Below are positions 3-32,631 of a stretch of 39,110 nt of DNA, piece by piece (positions within the stretch are counted from its first letter, which is position 1; every line of letters begins with the position of its first letter). A program made the translations under genes and the position numbers. Under the pieces are notes generated by a model. The model saw only the letters and a program-made list of their open reading frames with translations, was not told the DNA's origin and made no database searches. This DNA is from Minisyncoccota bacterium (GTDB lineage Bacteria > Patescibacteriota > Minisyncoccia > Phycocordibacterales > PALSA-1337), in assembly GCA_018060945.1 (NCBI GenBank), contig JAGOVB010000003.1, positions 20,390-59,499 of the forward strand, written 5' to 3'.

Positions 3-761
3 CAAGTACCATTTGGAGTAGATAAAAACACTGAGCTTTTAAATTACGATGAACTAAAAAAGATTGCGGTAGAAAACAAACCAGACATTATCGTCGCTGG
101 ATTTACTGCATACCCACGAGTAGTTGATTTCAAAAAGTTCCGTGAGATCGCAGATGCATCCGGTGCACTTTTGATGGTGGACATGTCACACTTTGCCGGG
201 CTCGTAGCTGGAAAAGAATATCCATCTCCATTTTTGTATGCCGATATCGTTACTCACACAACTCACAAAAGTCTCCGTGGTCCGCGTTCAGCTATCATAT
301 ATGCAAAGATAGATGCTCGAGAAATGGGAAAGAAGATAGACCGTGCAGTATTTCCAGGTATGCAGGGAGGTCCTCATATAAACCAGATTGCAGCTGTAGC
401 AGTCGCTCTCAAGGAAGCTGCAGAACCAAGTTTTAGAAAGTACGCAAAGCAGGTGATCAAAAACGCTCAAGCACTTTCAACGGAGCTGACCAAACGTGGG
501 TGGAGAATAGTCTCTGGGGGAACTGATTCGCATCTCATCCTTGTCGATACCATATCAGGAGGAATTTCTGGAAAAGATGCATCAGATCGTCTGGAAAAAG
601 AGGGGATCATCGTAAACAAAAATGCGATCCCGTATGACACTCGACCACCAACCGACCCATCAGGAATCCGACTTGGTACATGTGCAGAGACAACTCGAGG
701 AAAGAAAGAAAAAGATATGAAAAAGATTGCTGAGCGTATCGACAAGATTTTGAGAAAATAA
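3..761 (+). CDS. glyA: Serine hydroxymethyltransferase, C-terminal part (5' end outside window)
   Basis: Cytosolic PLP enzyme that interconverts serine and glycine while loading one-carbon units onto tetrahydrofolate. The frame is open from base 3 and reads into the window without a start, so the N-terminal part lies upstream. Visible SHMT signatures are VDMSHFAGLVAG (active-site Asp/His region) and THKSLRGPRSA, whose Lys is the expected PLP Schiff-base residue, then FPGMQGGPH and a C-terminal GIRLGTCAETTRG. The stop TAA shares its last base with the ATG of argS (TAATG), implying translational coupling. The family assignment is firm; the missing N-terminus cannot be judged. Confidence 0.97.
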   Translation, partial: QVPFGVDKNTELLNYDELKKIAVENKPDIIVAGFTAYPRVVDFKKFREIADASGALLMVDMSHFAGLVAGKEYPSPFLYADIVTHTTHKSLRGPRSAIIYAKIDAREMGKKIDRAVFPGMQGGPHINQIAAVAVALKEAAEPSFRKYAKQVIKNAQALSTELTKRGWRIVSGGTDSHLILVDTISGGISGKDASDRLEKEGIIVNKNAIPYDTRPPTDPSGIRLGTCAETTRGKKEKDMKKIAERIDKILRK

Positions 762-2344
762 TGCAAGAAAAAATTAAAGAAATACTCAAACAGGCAACCG
801 AACTCAATATCGATATTCCTGTTGCACATACGGATGATTTTAAAAACGGCGACTATGCATCACCGGTAGCTTTTGTCCTGGCTAAGCAGTGGAAAATCAC
901 TCCAAAAGATGCAGCTCAAAAAGTCTTTGAAAAATTAGTTTTACCAAAAGAAATTAAAAAAGTAGAAGTAGCGGGGAATGGATATCTGAATTTCTTTTTA
1001 GCTGAAGACTACATTGCTCGGATGGTGCAGGGGGTAGATGATAATTTTGGGAAAAATGATGTCTATAAAGGACAAAAAGGGATGGTGGAGTATACCGATC
1101 CAAATCCATTTAAGGTATTTCATATTGGGCACTTGATGAACAACTCAATCGGAGAAACTCTGGCACGTCTTGCTGAGTTTGGCGGAGCACAGGTGATACG
1201 TGCTTGCTATCAGGGAGATGTCGGTCTACATGTAGCAAAGGCAATCTGGGCACTCCTCCAAGACAAAGAAAATTTCGAAAATACAATTGAGTATTGGGGA
1301 AAGGTATATGTTACTGGGAGCAGTGAGTATGAAAATCACAAAGCAGAGATCGACGAATTAAACAAAAAGATTTTTGAAAAATCAGATCCAGAAATACAAA
1401 AATACTATGAGCTCGGTCGCGCATTGAGCCTGGAATATTTTGAAACTATATATAAAAAGCTCGACACACATTTTGATCGGTACTTCTTTGAAAGTGAAGT
1501 AGCCCAAGAGGGAATCAAGCTAGTCAAAGACAATTCTCAAGTTTTCGAATTGAGCGAGGGAGCAATGGTATTTAAAGGATCGCACACACGCGTATTTTTA
1601 AATTCAAAAGGACTTCCAACATACGAAGCAAAAGAATTGGGTCTCACTGCTACAAAATTTAGAGAATTTTCTGACATCGCTTTTTCCCTTGTAGTGACTG
1701 GCAACGAACAGAATGATTATTTTAAGGTTGTTAAAGAAGCTTTATTAAAAATAGACCCAAAGTACAATATCAGACAGTTTGGACATGGTCTCATGCGTTT
1801 TGCAGATGGAAAGATGTCTTCTCGAAAGGGAAATATTGTTAGTGCAGAAGATTTGATATCTGATATTCAGACTTCAGTAAAAGAAAAAAATCCTGATTCT
1901 GATTCAGAAAAGATAGCGATCGCGGCGATCAAGTACTCGATCCTGCGCCAGGCTGTCGGCGGTGACATTATCTATGACAAAGAAAAGTCTGTTTCATTTG
2001 AAGGAGACTCAGGTCCGTATCTTCAATACTCATGTGTCCGTGCAAAATCTGTTTTGGCAAAGGCGGGTACAGCTGAGATAAAAAATCGTACGATCAACGT
2101 TCTCGATCGGATGATTCTACGTTTCCCTGAAGTTGTGTTACGTGCACAGACTGAATTTGCTCCACACCATGTGGTCACGTACCTCACTCAGTTGGCGGGG
2201 GAGTTTAATAATTTTTACGCTCACAACAAAATCCTCGATGCAGGGGATGATACTGGGTATAGATTGGTGCAAACCAAAGCTTTTATCGAGACTATGCAAA
2301 ACGGCCTCAAGATCCTCGCTATCCAAATCCCCTCAAAAATGTAG
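761..2344 (+). CDS. argS: Arginyl-tRNA synthetase
   Basis: Class I aminoacyl-tRNA synthetase that charges tRNA-Arg; 527 aa, close to the usual 550-580. An N-terminal Arg-tRNA-synthetase (Add-1-like) domain precedes the Rossmann core. The ATP-binding HIGH motif is at residues 121-124, inside YTDPNPFKVFHIGHLMNNS. A KMSS-type loop, KMSSRKGN, is at residues 351-358; many ArgRS enzymes lack a clear KMSKS, so this well-formed version is worth noting. The C-terminal anticodon-binding DALR-type helical domain runs to the end (AGEFNNFYAHNKIL). The start overlaps the glyA stop by one base and no ribosome-binding site is visible, so coupled translation is likely. The gene ends just before the promoter of a candidate small RNA. 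Confidence 0.97.
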   Translation: MQEKIKEILKQATELNIDIPVAHTDDFKNGDYASPVAFVLAKQWKITPKDAAQKVFEKLVLPKEIKKVEVAGNGYLNFFLAEDYIARMVQGVDDNFGKNDVYKGQKGMVEYTDPNPFKVFHIGHLMNNSIGETLARLAEFGGAQVIRACYQGDVGLHVAKAIWALLQDKENFENTIEYWGKVYVTGSSEYENHKAEIDELNKKIFEKSDPEIQKYYELGRALSLEYFETIYKKLDTHFDRYFFESEVAQEGIKLVKDNSQVFELSEGAMVFKGSHTRVFLNSKGLPTYEAKELGLTATKFREFSDIAFSLVVTGNEQNDYFKVVKEALLKIDPKYNIRQFGHGLMRFADGKMSSRKGNIVSAEDLISDIQTSVKEKNPDSDSEKIAIAAIKYSILRQAVGGDIIYDKEKSVSFEGDSGPYLQYSCVRAKSVLAKAGTAEIKNRTINVLDRMILRFPEVVLRAQTEFAPHHVVTYLTQLAGEFNNFYAHNKILDAGDDTGYRLVQTKAFIETMQNGLKILAIQIPSKM

Positions 2345-2373
2345 TTGACGTCATGCCTCAACCGTGCTATTCT
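2345..2373 (+). promoter_or_regulatory. Sigma-70-type promoter of candidate small RNA
   Basis: TTGACG (2345-2350), 17-nt spacer, TATTCT (2368-2373) preceded by TG at the extended -10 position (TGCTATTCT). It starts immediately after the argS stop. The predicted start of transcription, about 2380, coincides with the first base of a perfect hairpin. Confidence 0.7.
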
Positions 2374-2379
2374 TTTGCT

Positions 2380-2459
2380 GTTCGCACCTTTCGGCTTCGA
2401 GGTGTCGGACAAAGGTCAGTTGCAGTGGACGCGTCCACGGGCTGACCTTTTTCTTTTTT
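2380..2459 (+). ncRNA. Candidate two-hairpin small RNA
   Basis: About 80 nt, made almost entirely of two adjacent hairpins. Hairpin 1 (2380-2410): GTTCG+CACCT pairs with AGGTG+CGGAC, with a one-base bulge and a 10-nt loop. Hairpin 2 (2411-2450): AAAGGTCAG pairs with CTGACCTTT around an inner 14-bp perfect palindrome GTGGACGCGTCCAC, then a T-rich tract (2448-2459), as in an intrinsic terminator. It has its own promoter upstream, while ileS has a separate -10 (TAGAGT, 2474-2479) only 7 nt before its ATG. A self-contained small RNA therefore fits better than an ileS leader. An attenuator for ileS, or just the argS terminator, remains possible. It matches no RNA family that I recognise. Confidence 0.5.
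2411..2459 (+). terminator. Intrinsic terminator after argS / small RNA
   Basis: Nine-bp outer stem AAAGGTCAG/CTGACCTTT with an inner palindromic stem, followed by TTTTTCTTTTTT. It would end both argS read-through and the small RNA. Confidence 0.8.
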
Positions 2460-2473
2460 ATACCAAGATATGA

Positions 2474-2486
2474 TAGAGTAAATGCC
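2474..2486 (+). promoter_or_regulatory. Extended -10 placing ileS transcription start at its ATG
   Basis: TGATAGAGT gives a TG-n-TAGAGT extended -10 (hexamer 2474-2479); 7 nt separate it from the ATG at 2487. That spacing puts +1 at or next to the start codon, i.e. a leaderless mRNA, as seen at many other genes here. The hexamer is only a moderate match. Confidence 0.45.
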
Positions 2487-5400
2487 ATGAATGAAGCTAA
2501 AAGCACCCACGCAGAACGAGAGGAACGAATACTCGAATATTGGAAGCAAGACGGTACGTTCCAAAAGTCACTAGAGAAAGATTCCCCAAAAGGCGATTTT
2601 GTATTTTATGACGGACCTCCATTTGCGACTGGCACTCCACATTATGGCCACCTTTTGACGGGAACTATAAAAGACGTTATCCCACGATATAAAACTATGC
2701 AGGGGTATCATGTGCCTCGTCGTTGGGGGTGGGATTGTCATGGACTACCACTTGAAAACCTGATCGAAAAAGAACTCGGTCTCAAAACCAAAAAAGATAT
2801 CGAAGAATTGGGCATCGAAAATTTCAATGATGCTGCACGTAATGCAGTGCTCCGATACGCACATATCTGGAAAGAGGTAGTCCCTCGTTTTGGACGATGG
2901 GTAGATATGGACAATGATTATCGTACGATGGACTCTTCATATACTGAGTCTGTCTGGTGGGCATTTAAGACACTTCACGATAAGGGGCTCGTCTACGAAG
3001 GATATAAAAGCATGCAGCTCTGTCCTCGTTGTGGAACCACACTTTCAAACTTTGAAGTTAATCAGGGATACAAAGACATCACTGATATCTCTGTCTATGT
3101 AAAATTTAAGATAGAGCCAAACACATTTTTGCTCGCATGGACCACTACTCCTTGGACATTACCGGGCAATGCTGCACTCGCAGTCGGTCCCGATATCACA
3201 TATGCAAAGATAAAAATAGGCGATGATTTCTATATTCTTGCAAAAGAACGACTCGTAGTAATAAAAGATGCATACACTGTCGAAAAAGAAATGCTTGGAA
3301 AAGATTTGGTAGGTACAAAGTACACTCCTGTTTTTGATGCATATATAAAAGAGGGAAAAGTTTACCCAGCTGAATTTGTCACTACCACAGATGGAACAGG
3401 TATTGTCCATATTGCGCCTGCTTTTGGTCAGGATGACTATGATCTCGGAAAGAAGTACGATCTCAAATTTATCCAGCACGTTACTCCCGATGGCAAAATG
3501 ACCGTAGTTCCATTTGAAGGAATGGATGCAAAGCCAAAAGATGATCATCAGCGAACTGATGTAGAAGTTATCAAATATCTTGCGGGCAAAGGAACGCTTT
3601 TTGCAAAAGAAAAATTGATCCACTCATATCCACATTGTTGGCGTTGTGATACACCACTTCTTAACTATGCTTCTTCTTCATGGTTCGTAAAAGTTCCAGA
3701 AATAAAAAACAAACTCGTCTCAGAAAACAAAAAAGTACACTGGGTACCCGAATCAGTAGGAGCAAATCGTTTTGGGAACTGGCTTGAAGGTGCTCGTGAC
3801 TGGGCTATCTCACGTAGTCGATACTGGGGAGCTCCACTACCAGTGTGGAAGAGTAAAACTGAAACCAAAATAATTGCTTCGCTTTCTGATATTCAAAAAG
3901 CATGTAAACCTCGAAACAATATCCTATTGATGCGACATGGCGAGATCGAGAGCAATAAAAATAATCTTATCAGTGCTGATATACACAAGAAAGAGGGACT
4001 GACTGAGAATGGAAAGAAACAAGTCAAAAAGTCAGCAGAGTCACTCAAAAACAAAAAGATCGATCTAGTTTTCATCTCTCCATTTTTTAGAACAAAAGAG
4101 ACTGCAAAAATAGTTGCAGGGGTTTTGGATTTGAAATCAGAGCACATAAAAGAAGATGTACGTCTTGCTGAAGTAGATGCAATGGATTTCCAAGGTCGAC
4201 CATGGTCTGACATTTTGAACATGTATCGTGATCGAAAAGAATGGTTTGATCGGAAGATTGTAGGACTCGAGACTTTGTCTGAAGTACGTGAGCGAGTGGG
4301 TAGTTTTGTGTACGAGATAGATAAAAAATATAAAGACAAAAACATTCTCATCATCAGCCACAATACACCTCTAAAGATTGTGCAGGCCTTGTCAGAAGGA
4401 AAGGATGACGATTGCGATATTGAGCTTTTCGACAATGCAGAAGTTCGTGCACTGCATTTTACTCAGCTACCAAGAAACAGAGAATACAAGATCGATTTCC
4501 ATCGTCCATATATCGACGAAGTCGTTCTCCACGATTCAAAAGGGCATGAGATGAAGCGAGTACCTGAGGTGTTTGATTGCTGGTTTGAATCAGGTTCAAT
4601 GCCGTTTGCATCTCAACCGGTACGCCCAAAGTGGTTTGGAAAAATAAAAGGTTACCCAGCTCAGTTTATTGCAGAAGGACTCGATCAGACTCGAGGATGG
4701 TTTTACTCGATGCTTGTTTTGGGAACTGCACTATTTGGAAAATCTCCATATGAAAATGTGATCGTAAACGGGCTCGTGCTCGCAGAAGATGGGAAAAAGA
4801 TGTCAAAGAGTTTGAAAAATTATCCTGATCCGATGGATGTGGTGAACAAATTTGGCGCCGATGCTATCCGATACTTTATGCTCTTGTCTCCAGCGATGGC
4901 AGGAGAGGACCTGCGTTTTAGTGAAAAGGGTGTCGATGAAGTTGTTAAAAAAGTAATCAATCGTCTCGATAACGTAGTCACCTTCTTTGAAATGTATTCA
5001 AGATCAGAAGCTGCAAGTGTGCGTTCAACAAATATACTCGACAAATGGATCATGGCACGACTCCACGAGACTGCTCATATTGTTACCGAAGGTATGGACA
5101 AATACGAGTTACATATAGCAACTCGACCCTTCAATGATTTTATCGATGATCTTTCTACTTGGTATCTACGACGCTCACGTGACCGTTTCAAGGATGGTGA
5201 TGTCCAGGCAATCCAGACAACAAAATATATCCTCACAGAACTTTCAAAGTTACTCGCTCCTTTTATGCCATTCTTTGCTGAAGATATGTATCAAAGACTA
5301 GGTAATACAGAGAGTGTCCATCTAGCATCTTGGCCAGCACCACAGTCAGTTGATCAAAAGGTGATTGTAGAAATGAAAAAGACTCGTGATATCGTGACAT

Positions 5401-5810
5401 TTGGTCTCGAAGCTCGGACTCGATTCAGTATAAAAGTGCGACAACCACTCGCAAAACTTTCTGTACGTGAGCTCGTCAGTGCAGAGTTTGTCGAACTGAT
5501 CAAGGATGAAGTAAACGTAAAAACAGTTGTAGAAGACAAAGAAGTAAAAGGGGAAGTGCTCCTCGACCATGTCATCACTCCTGAGCTCAAAGAAGAAGGA
5601 GACGTACGAGAGTTCCTTCGACTCGTCCAAGATCTGCGAAAAGAAAAAGGATTAAAACTGGGTGAGCCAGCAAAACTCGCTGTGGCAACTGATGAAAAAA
5701 CAAAAGCATTGATCGAGAAAAACAAACCTCTCCTTCTCAAAGTTGCGCAGATAAAAGAAGTTACATTCACACTCTCTGATGCTGGAACGACGATGACTAT
5801 CGAACGCTAA
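2487..5810 (+). CDS. ileS: Isoleucyl-tRNA synthetase (IleS2 type) with inserted histidine-phosphatase domain
   Basis: Charges tRNA-Ile; 1107 aa. The start at 2487 (MNEAKS) is chosen because the 41 residues in frame upstream would be translated through the small-RNA terminator and do not look like IleRS. HYGH is at residues 52-55 and KMSKS at 771-775; the core wording (GWDCHGLP, FGRWVDMDNDYRTMD, VFDCWFESGSMPFA) is that of the eukaryote-like IleS2 class. The CP1 editing domain is present (AWTTTPWTLPGNAALAV). The striking feature is an insertion at about residues 472-665, between GAPLPVW and FHRPYIDEV, that is a complete histidine-phosphatase/phosphoglycerate-mutase-like domain: RHG at 483-485, Arg535 (SPFFRTKETA), Glu562 (LAEVDAM), His625 (IISHNTP). 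All expected catalytic residues are in place and the frame is unbroken. The anticodon-binding domain follows. The stop overlaps the recO start (TAATG). The insert's role is unknown. Confidence 0.95.
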   Translation: MNEAKSTHAEREERILEYWKQDGTFQKSLEKDSPKGDFVFYDGPPFATGTPHYGHLLTGTIKDVIPRYKTMQGYHVPRRWGWDCHGLPLENLIEKELGLKTKKDIEELGIENFNDAARNAVLRYAHIWKEVVPRFGRWVDMDNDYRTMDSSYTESVWWAFKTLHDKGLVYEGYKSMQLCPRCGTTLSNFEVNQGYKDITDISVYVKFKIEPNTFLLAWTTTPWTLPGNAALAVGPDITYAKIKIGDDFYILAKERLVVIKDAYTVEKEMLGKDLVGTKYTPVFDAYIKEGKVYPAEFVTTTDGTGIVHIAPAFGQDDYDLGKKYDLKFIQHVTPDGKMTVVPFEGMDAKPKDDHQRTDVEVIKYLAGKGTLFAKEKLIHSYPHCWRCDTPLLNYASSSWFVKVPEIKNKLVSENKKVHWVPESVGANRFGNWLEGARDWAISRSRYWGAPLPVWKSKTETKIIASLSDIQKACKPRNNILLMRHGEIESNKNNLISADIHKKEGLTENGKKQVKKSAESLKNKKIDLVFISPFFRTKETAKIVAGVLDLKSEHIKEDVRLAEVDAMDFQGRPWSDILNMYRDRKEWFDRKIVGLETLSEVRERVGSFVYEIDKKYKDKNILIISHNTPLKIVQALSEGKDDDCDIELFDNAEVRALHFTQLPRNREYKIDFHRPYIDEVVLHDSKGHEMKRVPEVFDCWFESGSMPFASQPVRPKWFGKIKGYPAQFIAEGLDQTRGWFYSMLVLGTALFGKSPYENVIVNGLVLAEDGKKMSKSLKNYPDPMDVVNKFGADAIRYFMLLSPAMAGEDLRFSEKGVDEVVKKVINRLDNVVTFFEMYSRSEAASVRSTNILDKWIMARLHETAHIVTEGMDKYELHIATRPFNDFIDDLSTWYLRRSRDRFKDGDVQAIQTTKYILTELSKLLAPFMPFFAEDMYQRLGNTESVHLASWPAPQSVDQKVIVEMKKTRDIVTFGLEARTRFSIKVRQPLAKLSVRELVSAEFVELIKDEVNVKTVVEDKEVKGEVLLDHVITPELKEEGDVREFLRLVQDLRKEKGLKLGEPAKLAVATDEKTKALIEKNKPLLLKVAQIKEVTFTLSDAGTTMTIER

Positions 5811-28910: not shown

Positions 28911-28924
28911 GATTTCCTAATAGG
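28911..28924 (+). other. 23S processing stem, 5' strand
   Basis: GATTTCCTAATAGG is perfectly complementary over 14 nt to 32433-32446; the pair closes the 23S precursor for RNase III-type cutting. Confidence 0.85.
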
Positions 28925-29440
28925 AAATTTAAGAGCATATGGTGGATGCCTTGGCTAAAAGAGGCGATGAAGGACGCGACAGGCGGCGATACGCTTCGGG
29001 GAGGTGCCTAGTGACCGTTATATCCGAAGATTTCCGAATGGGGAAACCCCTCTCTTTCGAGAGAGACACATAACTTGATTATGTGAGCGCACCCTGGGAA
29101 GTAAAACATTTCAGTACCAGGTGGAAAAGAGACAAATATGTATTTCGCAAGTAGCGGCGAGCGAAAACGAAATAGCCCAAACTCATCCTTTATCATACGG
29201 CGCACGTAAGTGTTTCGTATGATAAAGGATGGGGGTTGTAAGGTGGGGACGTGATATTTATATCAGAAAAGTTACAAAATTATTTAATAGTAGAATGTTC
29301 TGGAAAGAACAGCCCTAGTAGGTGATAGCCCTGTAAACGAAATTAAATAGTCTTTTTTGTTCCCATTCTTGAGTACCTCGAGACACGAATAGCTCGGGGG
29401 AATCTGCCGGAACTAACCGGCAAGGCTAAATACTCTTTTA

Positions 29441-29482
<42 letters not shown>

Positions 29483-30053
29483 GCCCGTTAAGGGCGTTGA
29501 AATAATCCTGAAACCATATGTTTACAAGGAGTCGAAGCGGGTGCAAGTCCGCGACGGCGTGCCTATTGAAGAATGAGCCAACGAGTTTTAGCATACTGCA
29601 GGCTAAGGTCGAGAGACTGGAGCCATAGGGAAACCGAGTATGAATAGTGCGATCGTAGTATGCTAAAGACCCGAAGCCAGGTGAGCTTGCCTTGAGCAGG
29701 ATGAACTTCTGAGAAATCAGAAGGAAGGTCCGAACGATAGAGTTGTGCAATTCTCTTCGATGACTTGAGGTAAGGAGTGAAAAGCTAATCGAACCTGGTA
29801 ATAGCTGGTTTTCTCCGAAATAGCTTTTGGGCTAGCGTTAGACGTACCCACGTGGGGTAGAGCACTGGAAGGTCTTGACAGGTCGAAAGATCCCGAGACC
29901 TATCAAACTCCGAATACACGTGGTCAAATATCTAGCAGTTAGACGGTGGGGGCTAAGCTCCATGCGTCAAAAGGGAAACAGCCCGGACCTCCATTTAAGG
30001 TCCCTAAATTTACGTTAAGTACACTTAAGGTGGTGAAGTTTCTTAAACAATGA

Positions 30054-30085
<32 letters not shown>

Positions 30086-30891
30086 GAAAGCGTAACAGCT
30101 CACTCATCGAGAGACTTTGCGCCGCAGATAATCGGGGTTTAAACGTAATACCGAAACTGAGGATGCGTTCTTTCTTCGGAAAGATCGCGTGGTAGGAGAA
30201 TTTTCTGTTCTGCGTTGAAGGTGAAGGGGTGACCCACACTGGAGCGTACAGAAGTAAGAATGTTGGCACAAGTAACCGCAATGCGGGTGAGATACCCGCA
30301 CGTCGAAAGATCAAGGTTTCCTTTGCGATGTAGATCAGCGAAGGGTTAGTCGGGCCTAAGGGAATGGCAAACGCCGTACCCGATGGACACATGGTTAATA
30401 TTCCATGACTTTTACGTAGAATGAGGGAGGGACGAAGTGCAGTATGTATCGCATGTTATTGGATTTGTGTGCATTCTATAAGGGCGCTCTCTAGGTAAAT
30501 CCGGAGACTGATTTAAATATCGGGTCTAAGTAGCGTGCAAATGTTGGGGTTCGCCCTTGCAAATGATACAAAGCGCGCTTTCGAGAAAATCTTCTAAGTT
30601 TATCTACGTAAAAACCGTACCGTAAACCGACACAGGTGATCAGGGCGAGTAGCCTAAGACGAACGAGTGAGAGGTCTCCAAGGAACTCGGCAAAAAAGCA
30701 GCCGTAACTTCGGAATAAGGCTTGCCCATAATAAAATATGGGCCGCAGCGAAAGTATCTCTGGCGACTGTTTATCAAAAACACAGCTCCCTGCGAACACG
30801 TAAGTGGATGTATAGGGGGTGACACTTGACCAATGCCGGTAGGTCAAACAACGGCGGTGCGATTATATCAAGCTGACTGTTGTAAGCCCCG

Positions 30892-30926
<35 letters not shown>

Positions 30927-31146
30927 TCTCGGTTTATCTTCGGATGAACCGAGACGGACTAGGACTGTTATATAGCAAAAGTGTAGTTTAGAGAAAACAG
31001 ATCAAATATGTTACATAAACAAGCTACCTGCAATTCAAGAAATTGATTGTGGAGTCCATGTGGGCAAATAGAGACCAGCACCACACATCCGACTTCCGAA
31101 AGGGAAGGATGAAGATAGAGTCCTACTGTGCTTAAAGGAATAGTAG
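30927..31146 (+). ncRNA. Group I intron in 23S at site L1931, no ORF
   Basis: The 5' exon stops at CCTAAGGT (U1931 in E. coli numbering) and the 3' exon resumes at AGCGAAATTCC. The last 5' exon base is U and the last intron base is G, as group I splicing requires. The core R element AGAGACCAGC (31070-31079), a P8 hairpin with GAAA loop, and the S element GAAGATAGAGTCC (31111-31123) are in the right order; P9 (CTACT/AGTAG) closes at the end. The intron opens with an 8-bp hairpin TCTCGGTT/AACCGAGA capped by TTCG. 220 nt, too small for a homing endonuclease. The guide pairing P1 is not clean by eye. Confidence 0.9.
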
Positions 31147-31809
31147 AGCGAAATTCCTTGTCAGGTAAGTTCTGACGCGCACGAATAGTGTAACGACTGG
31201 AGAACTGTCTCGGAGACTTGCTCGGTGAAAATACAGTACCGGTGAAGATGCCGGTTACCTGCAGTTAGACGAAAAGACCCTAGAAGCTTTACTGCAATTT
31301 TTCGTTGAGTGTATATTTATTATGCGTAGCGTAGATGGTAGGATTTGAAGCTCACCTCTCGGGGTGGGTGGATCCGTCGATGAAACACCATTCTTAATTG
31401 ATATACATTCTAACCACAGTGGAAAAACCACCGTGAGACAGCGGATGATGGGCAGTTTTAGTGGGGCGCTATCCTCCTAAAAAGTAACGGAGGAGCCTAT
31501 TAAGGTCAGCTAGCCGTGAATGGAAACCATGGCGATAGTGTATAGGCACAAGCTGGCTTGACTGTGAGACGTACTTGTCGAGCAGACGCGAAAGCGGAGC
31601 TAAGTGAACCGACCTTTCGCATTAGATGCGGGGGAAGATTATCGGATAAAAGCTACTCTAGGGATAACAGGCTGGTTGCGCCTGAGCGTTCATAGCGGCG
31701 GCGCAGTTCGGCACCTCGATGTCGGCTCAACTTATCCTGGGGCTGGAGAAGGTCCCAAGGGTTTGGCTGTTCGCCAATTAAAAAGTTACGCGAGCTGGGT
31801 TCAGACCGT

Positions 31810-32149
31810 TTAGTAGTTAAATACGACACGGTCTCGAGTGTGAGAAATGCATGTGAGTGAAGAAGAGTGTTGTGATCTTTGACTGTTAAACAGTCTGAAT
31901 CACTTCGAGTCTTTTTCGTCTAAAAAAAGATAATAAGTATAGGAAGTTTGACCAATCATACACGGCGGTCCTCCATAGAAATATGGAAGTGATCAAGTCG
32001 ATTAGTATCGGTGGAAGTCCATTTGCGCCCGCGAATGGATCATACCGAGGGAAGTTTGTGAATTTCACAGACACCCGTAGAGACTAAACATCGACCATCC
32101 GAAAGGATGAAGCTATAGTCCATTGCAACGAGTAATCGTTGGTAACAAG
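31810..32149 (+). ncRNA. Group I intron in 23S at site L2593, no ORF
   Basis: Interrupts the peptidyl-transferase region between CAGACCGT (U2593) and CGTGAGACAGG. 5' exon ends in U and intron ends in G (32149). The R element GTAGAGACTAAA (from 32078), a P8 hairpin CATCC-GAAA-GGATG, and the S element GAAGCTATAGTCC (32109-32121) are textbook. An internal guide ACGGTCT near 31837 is fully complementary to the exon AGACCGT; it would pair the splice-site U with A rather than the usual G. About 340 nt with no coding frame. Confidence 0.92.
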
Positions 32150-32291
32150 CGTGAGACAGGTTGGTCTCCTATCTACTGCAGGCGTTGATTCTTGAGGAGA
32201 TTTGACTCTAGTACGAGAGGACCGAGTTGAACTGACCTCTGGTGTATCTGCTGTCCTGCCAAGGGCAACGCAGAGTAGCTATGTCGGGCAT

Positions 32292-32324
<33 letters not shown>

Positions 32325-32432
32325 AGCTCCAAGATTAGGAATCGTTTGAGATCCGTAAGAGATGATTACGTTGATAGGCTTTAGGTGTACGCACAGTAAT
32401 GTGTTCAGCCGTGAAGTACTAATCCATCGACT

Positions 32433-32446
32433 CCTATTAGGAAATC
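32433..32446 (+). other. 23S processing stem, 3' strand
   Basis: CCTATTAGGAAATC, perfect complement of 28911-28924. Confidence 0.85.
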
Positions 32447-32516: not shown

Positions 32517-32631
32517 TGTTCTGGTGATTCGGCGCTATGGAACCACCCGTTCTCATTCCGAACACGGAAGTTAAACGTAGTAGCGGCGATGATAGTCTCT
32601 ATGGGGCAAAAGTAGCTAGTCGCCAGAACAG
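32517..32631 (+). rRNA. rrf: 5S ribosomal RNA
   Basis: About 115 nt. Helix I: TGTTCTGGTGA (32517-32527) pairs with TCGCCAGAACA (32620-32630), one G-T pair. The conserved loop B/C region CCGAACACGGAAGTTAAACG and the GGCGATGATAGT segment identify it. It follows 23S by about 75 nt with no tRNA between. No clear terminator; the -10 of the next gene starts 12 nt later. Confidence 0.95.

Follow-up and report, generated by a model that had tools for sequence, protein, structure and literature searches.

Class Ia aminoacyl-tRNA synthetases charge tRNA and edit mistakes. Enzyme domains in synthetases are already known; the NCBIfam family NF040702 (ileS_w_GNAT), for example, describes isoleucyl-tRNA synthetases (IleRSs) with an extra enzyme domain and provides a precedent for such an architecture, its extra domain being an acetyltransferase and not a phosphatase. 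Here we describe an IleRS with a complete inserted histidine phosphatase (HP) domain, encoded by ileS in a 39,110-nucleotide stretch of a Minisyncoccota bacterium (assembly GCA_018060945.1, contig JAGOVB010000003.1, positions 20,390 to 59,499), referred to below as the window. The synthetase body has its nearest solved structures in the IleS2 enzymes Priestia megaterium IleRS2 (8c8u) and yeast IleRS (7d5c, 8wnd), with Z scores of 42-46 and ~42% identity, but these enzymes, unlike the window protein, lack a phosphatase domain in CP2. The window protein scored 324 vs 1999 bits against NF040702 and contained no GNAT match.

The HP domain lies within CP2, with the GAPLPVW strand before it and the FHRPYIDEV segment after it. 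Pfam placed a complete His_Phos_1 domain (PF00300) at residues 520-700 of the 1148-aa open reading frame (ORF), with 106 bits vs a cut-off of 21.7 (E 2e-30), flanked on both sides by tRNA-synt_1 stretches; a search with the insert alone gave E 7e-32. The profile of the branch-1 histidine phosphatase superfamily was matched with 106-111 bits over positions 1-182 of 194. Modelled alone with AlphaFold2, the domain reached a pLDDT of 94.8 and a pTM of 0.92, and its best Foldseek match was 4ij6 (E 7e-13). The whole fused protein, modelled with AlphaFold2 on 33 fused relatives, had a mean pLDDT of 89.3 and a pTM of 0.81. An earlier sequence-only reading had proposed that an IleS2-type enzyme, in which this part of CP2 is otherwise just a short segment, holds a complete histidine phosphatase domain without loss of frame, and these results bear it out. 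The domain and its key residues are listed below in window positions, with residues counted from the ATG at 2487, a numbering shared with that reading.

3918..4466 (about), + strand: inserted histidine phosphatase domain, residues 478-660 (PF00300 E 2e-30; domain model; Foldseek)
3933..3941, + strand: RHG motif, R483-H484-G485, with H484 the expected nucleophile; R and H invariant in 113/113 synthetase-inserted HPs
4077..4091, + strand: S531 and R535, phosphate pocket; invariant in 113/113
4170..4172, + strand: E562, expected general acid/base; 112/113, one Asp
4269..4295, + strand: E595 and R603, invariant conserved pair; 113/113
4359..4361, + strand: H625, second catalytic histidine; invariant in 113/113

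The residues that define the superfamily (RHG, Arg, Glu, His) are present in the window protein and in 112-113 of the 113 inserts. RHG 483-485, R535, E562 and H625 lie where the sequence-only reading had located them and are kept in relatives, E562 being replaced by Asp once; S531, E595 and R603 proved equally invariant. The 113 synthetase-inserted HPs share a mean pairwise identity of only 33%, and eight positions never vary among them: R483, H484, L505, S531, R535, E595, R603 and H625. Compared with its nearest relative, the window protein shows 46% identity over the HP and 64% over the synthetase. The insert thus changes faster than its host, yet its active site is preserved, which argues for a retained enzyme rather than a scaffold. 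Judged from these alignments, HP catalysis appears to be under selection. Insertions in CP2 could, as a general expectation, stabilise a class Ia enzyme, and the insert might accordingly be structural or regulatory without catalysis. We consider this very unlikely, as the catalytic residues are invariant across the 113 inserts and kept in both copies of tandem HPs, and a separate-gene form exists.

We analyzed the spread of the fusion by reading loci in full and found an HP in the IleRS of 89 genomes, representing at least 44 family-level groups of Patescibacteria (Candidate Phyla Radiation, CPR). Among the 60 nearest genomes, 58 carried the insert with the same junctions, a few being cut by contig ends. 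These junctions recurred in at least 37 independently deposited, named contigs, including Nomura-, Taylor-, Zambryski-, Pace-, Wolfe-, Sung-, Yanofsky-, Jorgensen-, Giovannoni-, Falkow- and Peregrinibacteria. The sequence-only reading had named an assembly artefact at the junctions as a possible failure of its proposal; an artefact of assembly or gene calling is refuted by this recurrence and by the confidently predicted fold. We found no point in its support, and its probability is negligible. As possible functions, that reading had suggested that the domain could dephosphorylate a nucleotide or an inhibitor, or regulate charging; the clade-wide housekeeping distribution argues against a role in inhibitor resistance.

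A degenerate-pattern scan over 84,980 genomes kept 80 loci, of which about 40 were unfused IleRSs from outside CPR (Bacteroidota, Bacillota, archaea and others); none of these ~40 carried an HP. One locus labelled Spirochaetia (L180) comes from a 400-kb genome whose sole IleRS is the fused form. Since this IleRS was placed among CPR rows in the tree, we treated the genome as a mislabelled CPR. In a quick tree of the IleRS body (LG+G4), fused and unfused rows interleaved, with 13 changes, at least 10 of them forced by supported branches; this count does not tell gains, losses and transfer apart. The IleRS of genome G174 (locus L076) grouped with an archaeal IleRS in the tree, yet has its HP at the same CP2 site. 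In a Yanofskybacteria locus (L206), the reading frame of the fused gene is broken just upstream of the HP, by a frameshift or a sequencing error.

We found the HP in several other arrangements, which the sequence-only reading had not foreseen; its catalytic, in-frame module stood, and to it are added a common occurrence in the lineage, several insertion sites, a second synthetase and a split gene. Within IleRS, the HP occupies three positions: site A in CP2 (core column ~494), column ~545, and column ~675 just after KMSKS. Two tandem HPs occur at site A in one family-level group (f107) and in a Peregrinibacterium (L203). One IleRS (genome G302) carries three HPs at three sites, and another (G428) combines a site-A HP with a second one after KMSKS. 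Valyl-tRNA synthetase (ValRS) bears an HP in seven genomes (loci L065, L066, L068, L081, L137, L157 and L261), and five genomes (G046, G105, G282, G302 and G432) have an HP in both IleRS and ValRS. The presence of an HP in two synthetases of one genome suggests that it acts locally: for a diffusible substrate, a single copy would suffice. Taken together, the three IleRS positions, the ValRS fusions, the tandem copies and the genomes with both synthetases fused fit a local rather than a diffusible role.

The HP also exists as a separate gene beside ileS. In genome G333 (locus L255), IleRS is unfused and the HP lies between argS and ileS (order argS-HP-ileS) with overlapping ends; this split HP shares 53% identity with an inserted HP and is closer to it than to the free HPs examined. 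A Nealsonbacterium likewise has an HP gene upstream of its unfused ileS. In a phylogenetic tree of HPs, both split genes grouped with every site-A insert and some of the remaining synthetase HPs, to the supported exclusion of all free HPs (SH-aLRT 98). The approximately unbiased (AU) test gave p 0.44 for a single origin of all synthetase HPs; constraining the tandem copies or the ValRS HPs to one clade each gave p 0.067 and p 0.063, respectively. As a separate observation, in Urinicoccus massiliensis (Bacillota; L220, 7885-8493) an HP gene begins directly after an unfused ileS, and this HP is nearer to free HPs. It is possible, although we would not expect it, that a dedicated family of synthetase-associated phosphatases arose in CPR bacteria. 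Its members would move from one synthetase (IleRS or ValRS) to the other and from site to site within them, would enter or leave as a separate gene, and would add to charging and editing a third catalytic activity, such as the repair of phosphorylated tRNA ends.

The account we favour, tentatively, is that the HP works as a phosphomonoesterase of the histidine phosphatase superfamily, needing no metal, and that it has been retained for its chemistry while physically attached to the branched-chain synthetases of class Ia (IleRS and sometimes ValRS). By analogy with the family, the predicted phosphohistidine-based reaction would start with H484 taking the phosphate as phosphohistidine; E562 would act as acid/base; R483, R535 and H625 would hold the phosphate; and water would release it from the phosphohistidine. 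Acting in cis, the domain may locally clear a phosphorylated species met by the synthetase and so keep charging from being blocked. As a substrate, tRNA with a 3'-end phosphate would be the most concrete candidate, with a small phosphorylated metabolite as the alternative.

Other enzyme domains also enter these synthetases. Pfam detected a Nudix domain close to where the CP1 region begins in IleRSs of other CPR lineages (L160 residues 226-340; L161 residues 254-386), and L161 retains an intact Nudix box. Among the matches listed in a phylum-wide survey for Nudix domains, there was no synthetase fusion. The IleRS of G105 (L138) has a GNAT acetyltransferase domain at residues ~666-764, after the CWFESG motif, where the G302 IleRS has an HP. 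In ValRS, a serine-hydrolase domain directly precedes the HP in G288 (L065) and G432 (L068), and the former protein also carries a HAD domain in its CP1 region. The branched-chain synthetases of CPR thus host enzyme domains repeatedly, and the HP is the most frequent among those encountered in this analysis. We counted two of these domains, Nudix and HAD, in favour of a phosphatase kept for its chemistry, as they are unrelated phosphate hydrolases inserted in other IleRSs or ValRSs. Other observations weigh against it: domains other than phosphatases are also accepted, as the GNAT and serine-hydrolase inserts of related synthetases demonstrate, and IleRSs without an HP are common in the same phylum, including one of the same order (G316) and four of the same class (G233, G264, G333 and G341), so the HP is not essential for charging.

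The main rival explanation is that IleRS and ValRS readily tolerate insertions in CP2 and at sites nearby, and that an active housekeeping phosphatase rides there as a passenger in a compact genome, its substrate unrelated to aminoacylation. The GNAT, Nudix, HAD and serine-hydrolase domains in CPR IleRSs and ValRSs fit this explanation, as do HPs joined elsewhere in CPR to a VTT protein (L163), an MFS protein (L164), a SerA-like 2-hydroxyacid dehydrogenase (L165) and a pyruvate kinase (L168); catalytic conservation is equally expected of a passenger. The recurrence in IleRS and ValRS, the two or three HPs per polypeptide, the genomes with an HP in each of the two synthetases and the separate HP gene beside ileS instead point to a link with the synthetases. 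Moreover, HP-bearing ORFs longer than ~700 aa were all IleRS or ValRS among the matches listed. We therefore regard a passenger as possible but less probable than a phosphatase tethered for its chemistry.

A more specific proposal is that the HP strips a 3'-end phosphate from tRNA-Ile or tRNA-Val, making the CCA end chargeable. Such repair would account for the tethering to synthetases and for copies in two of them, but we know of no histidine phosphatase that acts on tRNA ends, which counts against it. The proposal is attractive because, as described for toxSAS, (pyro)phosphorylation of the CCA end is a type of tRNA damage that blocks charging (PMC11559606). The toxSAS described there, FaRel2, selects tRNA-Gly and tRNA-Thr (PMC11559606), however, and we consider tRNA end repair unlikely.

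The insert could also be a metabolic stand-in, replacing a missing phosphoglycerate mutase or clearing pyrophosphate where inorganic pyrophosphatase is absent. PF01676 is absent in about half of the fused genomes and PF00719 in two thirds, but mutase models score far below cut-off on the insert. In the genome studied here, we found a full-length PF01676 protein (510 aa, iPGM-like) and a PF00719 pyrophosphatase, and pyrophosphatase is at least as frequent in fused as in unfused genomes. With both proteins present, the stand-in is refuted as sole explanation for this genome, and overall it seems highly improbable.

The host gene encodes an IleS2-type IleRS. The ORF runs from a GTG at 2364 to a stop at 5810 on the + strand (1148 aa); its first 41 residues (window 2364-2486) look non-coding, and the ATG at 2487 is the likelier start. 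In addition to His_Phos_1, Pfam detected tRNA-synt_1 in two stretches (455.9 bits) and Anticodon_1. The NCBIfam ileS equivalog TIGR00392 was matched with 859 vs 621 bits, and the KMSKS motif, the CP1 editing domain and the IleRS fold are all present. The CP1 editing region is there as the sequence-only reading had stated. In relatives that keep them, CxxC pairs bracket the insert in a zinc-ribbon-like manner; the alignment shows that these cysteines are lost in the window protein. The remaining features of the locus are as follows.

2487..5810, + strand: ileS, isoleucyl-tRNA synthetase with inserted phosphatase, 1107 aa (Pfam, NCBIfam, structure matches, AlphaFold2)
3066..3635, + strand: CP1 editing domain, residues 194-383 (solved IleRS editing domain 1wk8, E 3e-37)
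3828..3848, + strand: left flank GAPLPVW, residues 448-454, where the first Rossmann half ends and CP2 begins (alignment of 31 fused proteins)
4497..4523, + strand: right flank FHRPYIDEV, residues 671-679, where the synthetase resumes (alignment)
4797..4811, + strand: KMSKS motif (sequence)
761..2344, + strand: argS, directly upstream of ileS (Pfam)

Elsewhere in the window, a 23S rRNA gene (28917-32442) spans ~3526 bases vs a 2925-position model, the ~600 extra bases possibly being an intron, and a 5S rRNA lies at 32520-32628.

A search of open-access papers, which left out most subscription papers, yielded no description of a synthetase containing a histidine phosphatase; this agrees with the sequence-only reading, which knew of no described function for such a fusion. 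The architecture may be listed automatically in domain databases. What is unusual about the HP insert is its breadth and conservation. Dozens of families, repeated insertions and a split operon form make it hard to dismiss as a curiosity, and translation enzymes in this lineage seem, from their sequences, to carry additional chemical activity. If the conserved phosphatase is a third activity, it would point to phosphorylated species interfering with translation in CPR bacteria.

Among known phosphatases, the closest solved relative of the insert is the phosphoserine phosphatase PspA of Hydrogenobacter thermophilus (4ij5/4ij6), with a sequence E of 2e-14, a fold E of 7e-13 and a TM of 0.8. Models for specific members of the superfamily did not claim the insert: it scored 66 vs 350 bits for a PspA ortholog (NF045917 equivalog), 78 vs 163 bits for the alpha-ribazole phosphatase CobC (TIGR03162), and 84 vs 225 bits for a 2,3-diphosphoglycerate-dependent mutase (NF038349 and others). 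PhoE, CobC and a riboflavin-pathway histidine family phosphatase (1h2e, 6e4b, 9mmh) have the fold and catalytic residues of the insert; they are small phosphatases with differing substrates and, unlike the insert, have no link to a synthetase. PspA likewise shares the RHG...R...E...H active site, but it is a free-standing enzyme named for phosphoserine, whereas the insert resides within a synthetase.
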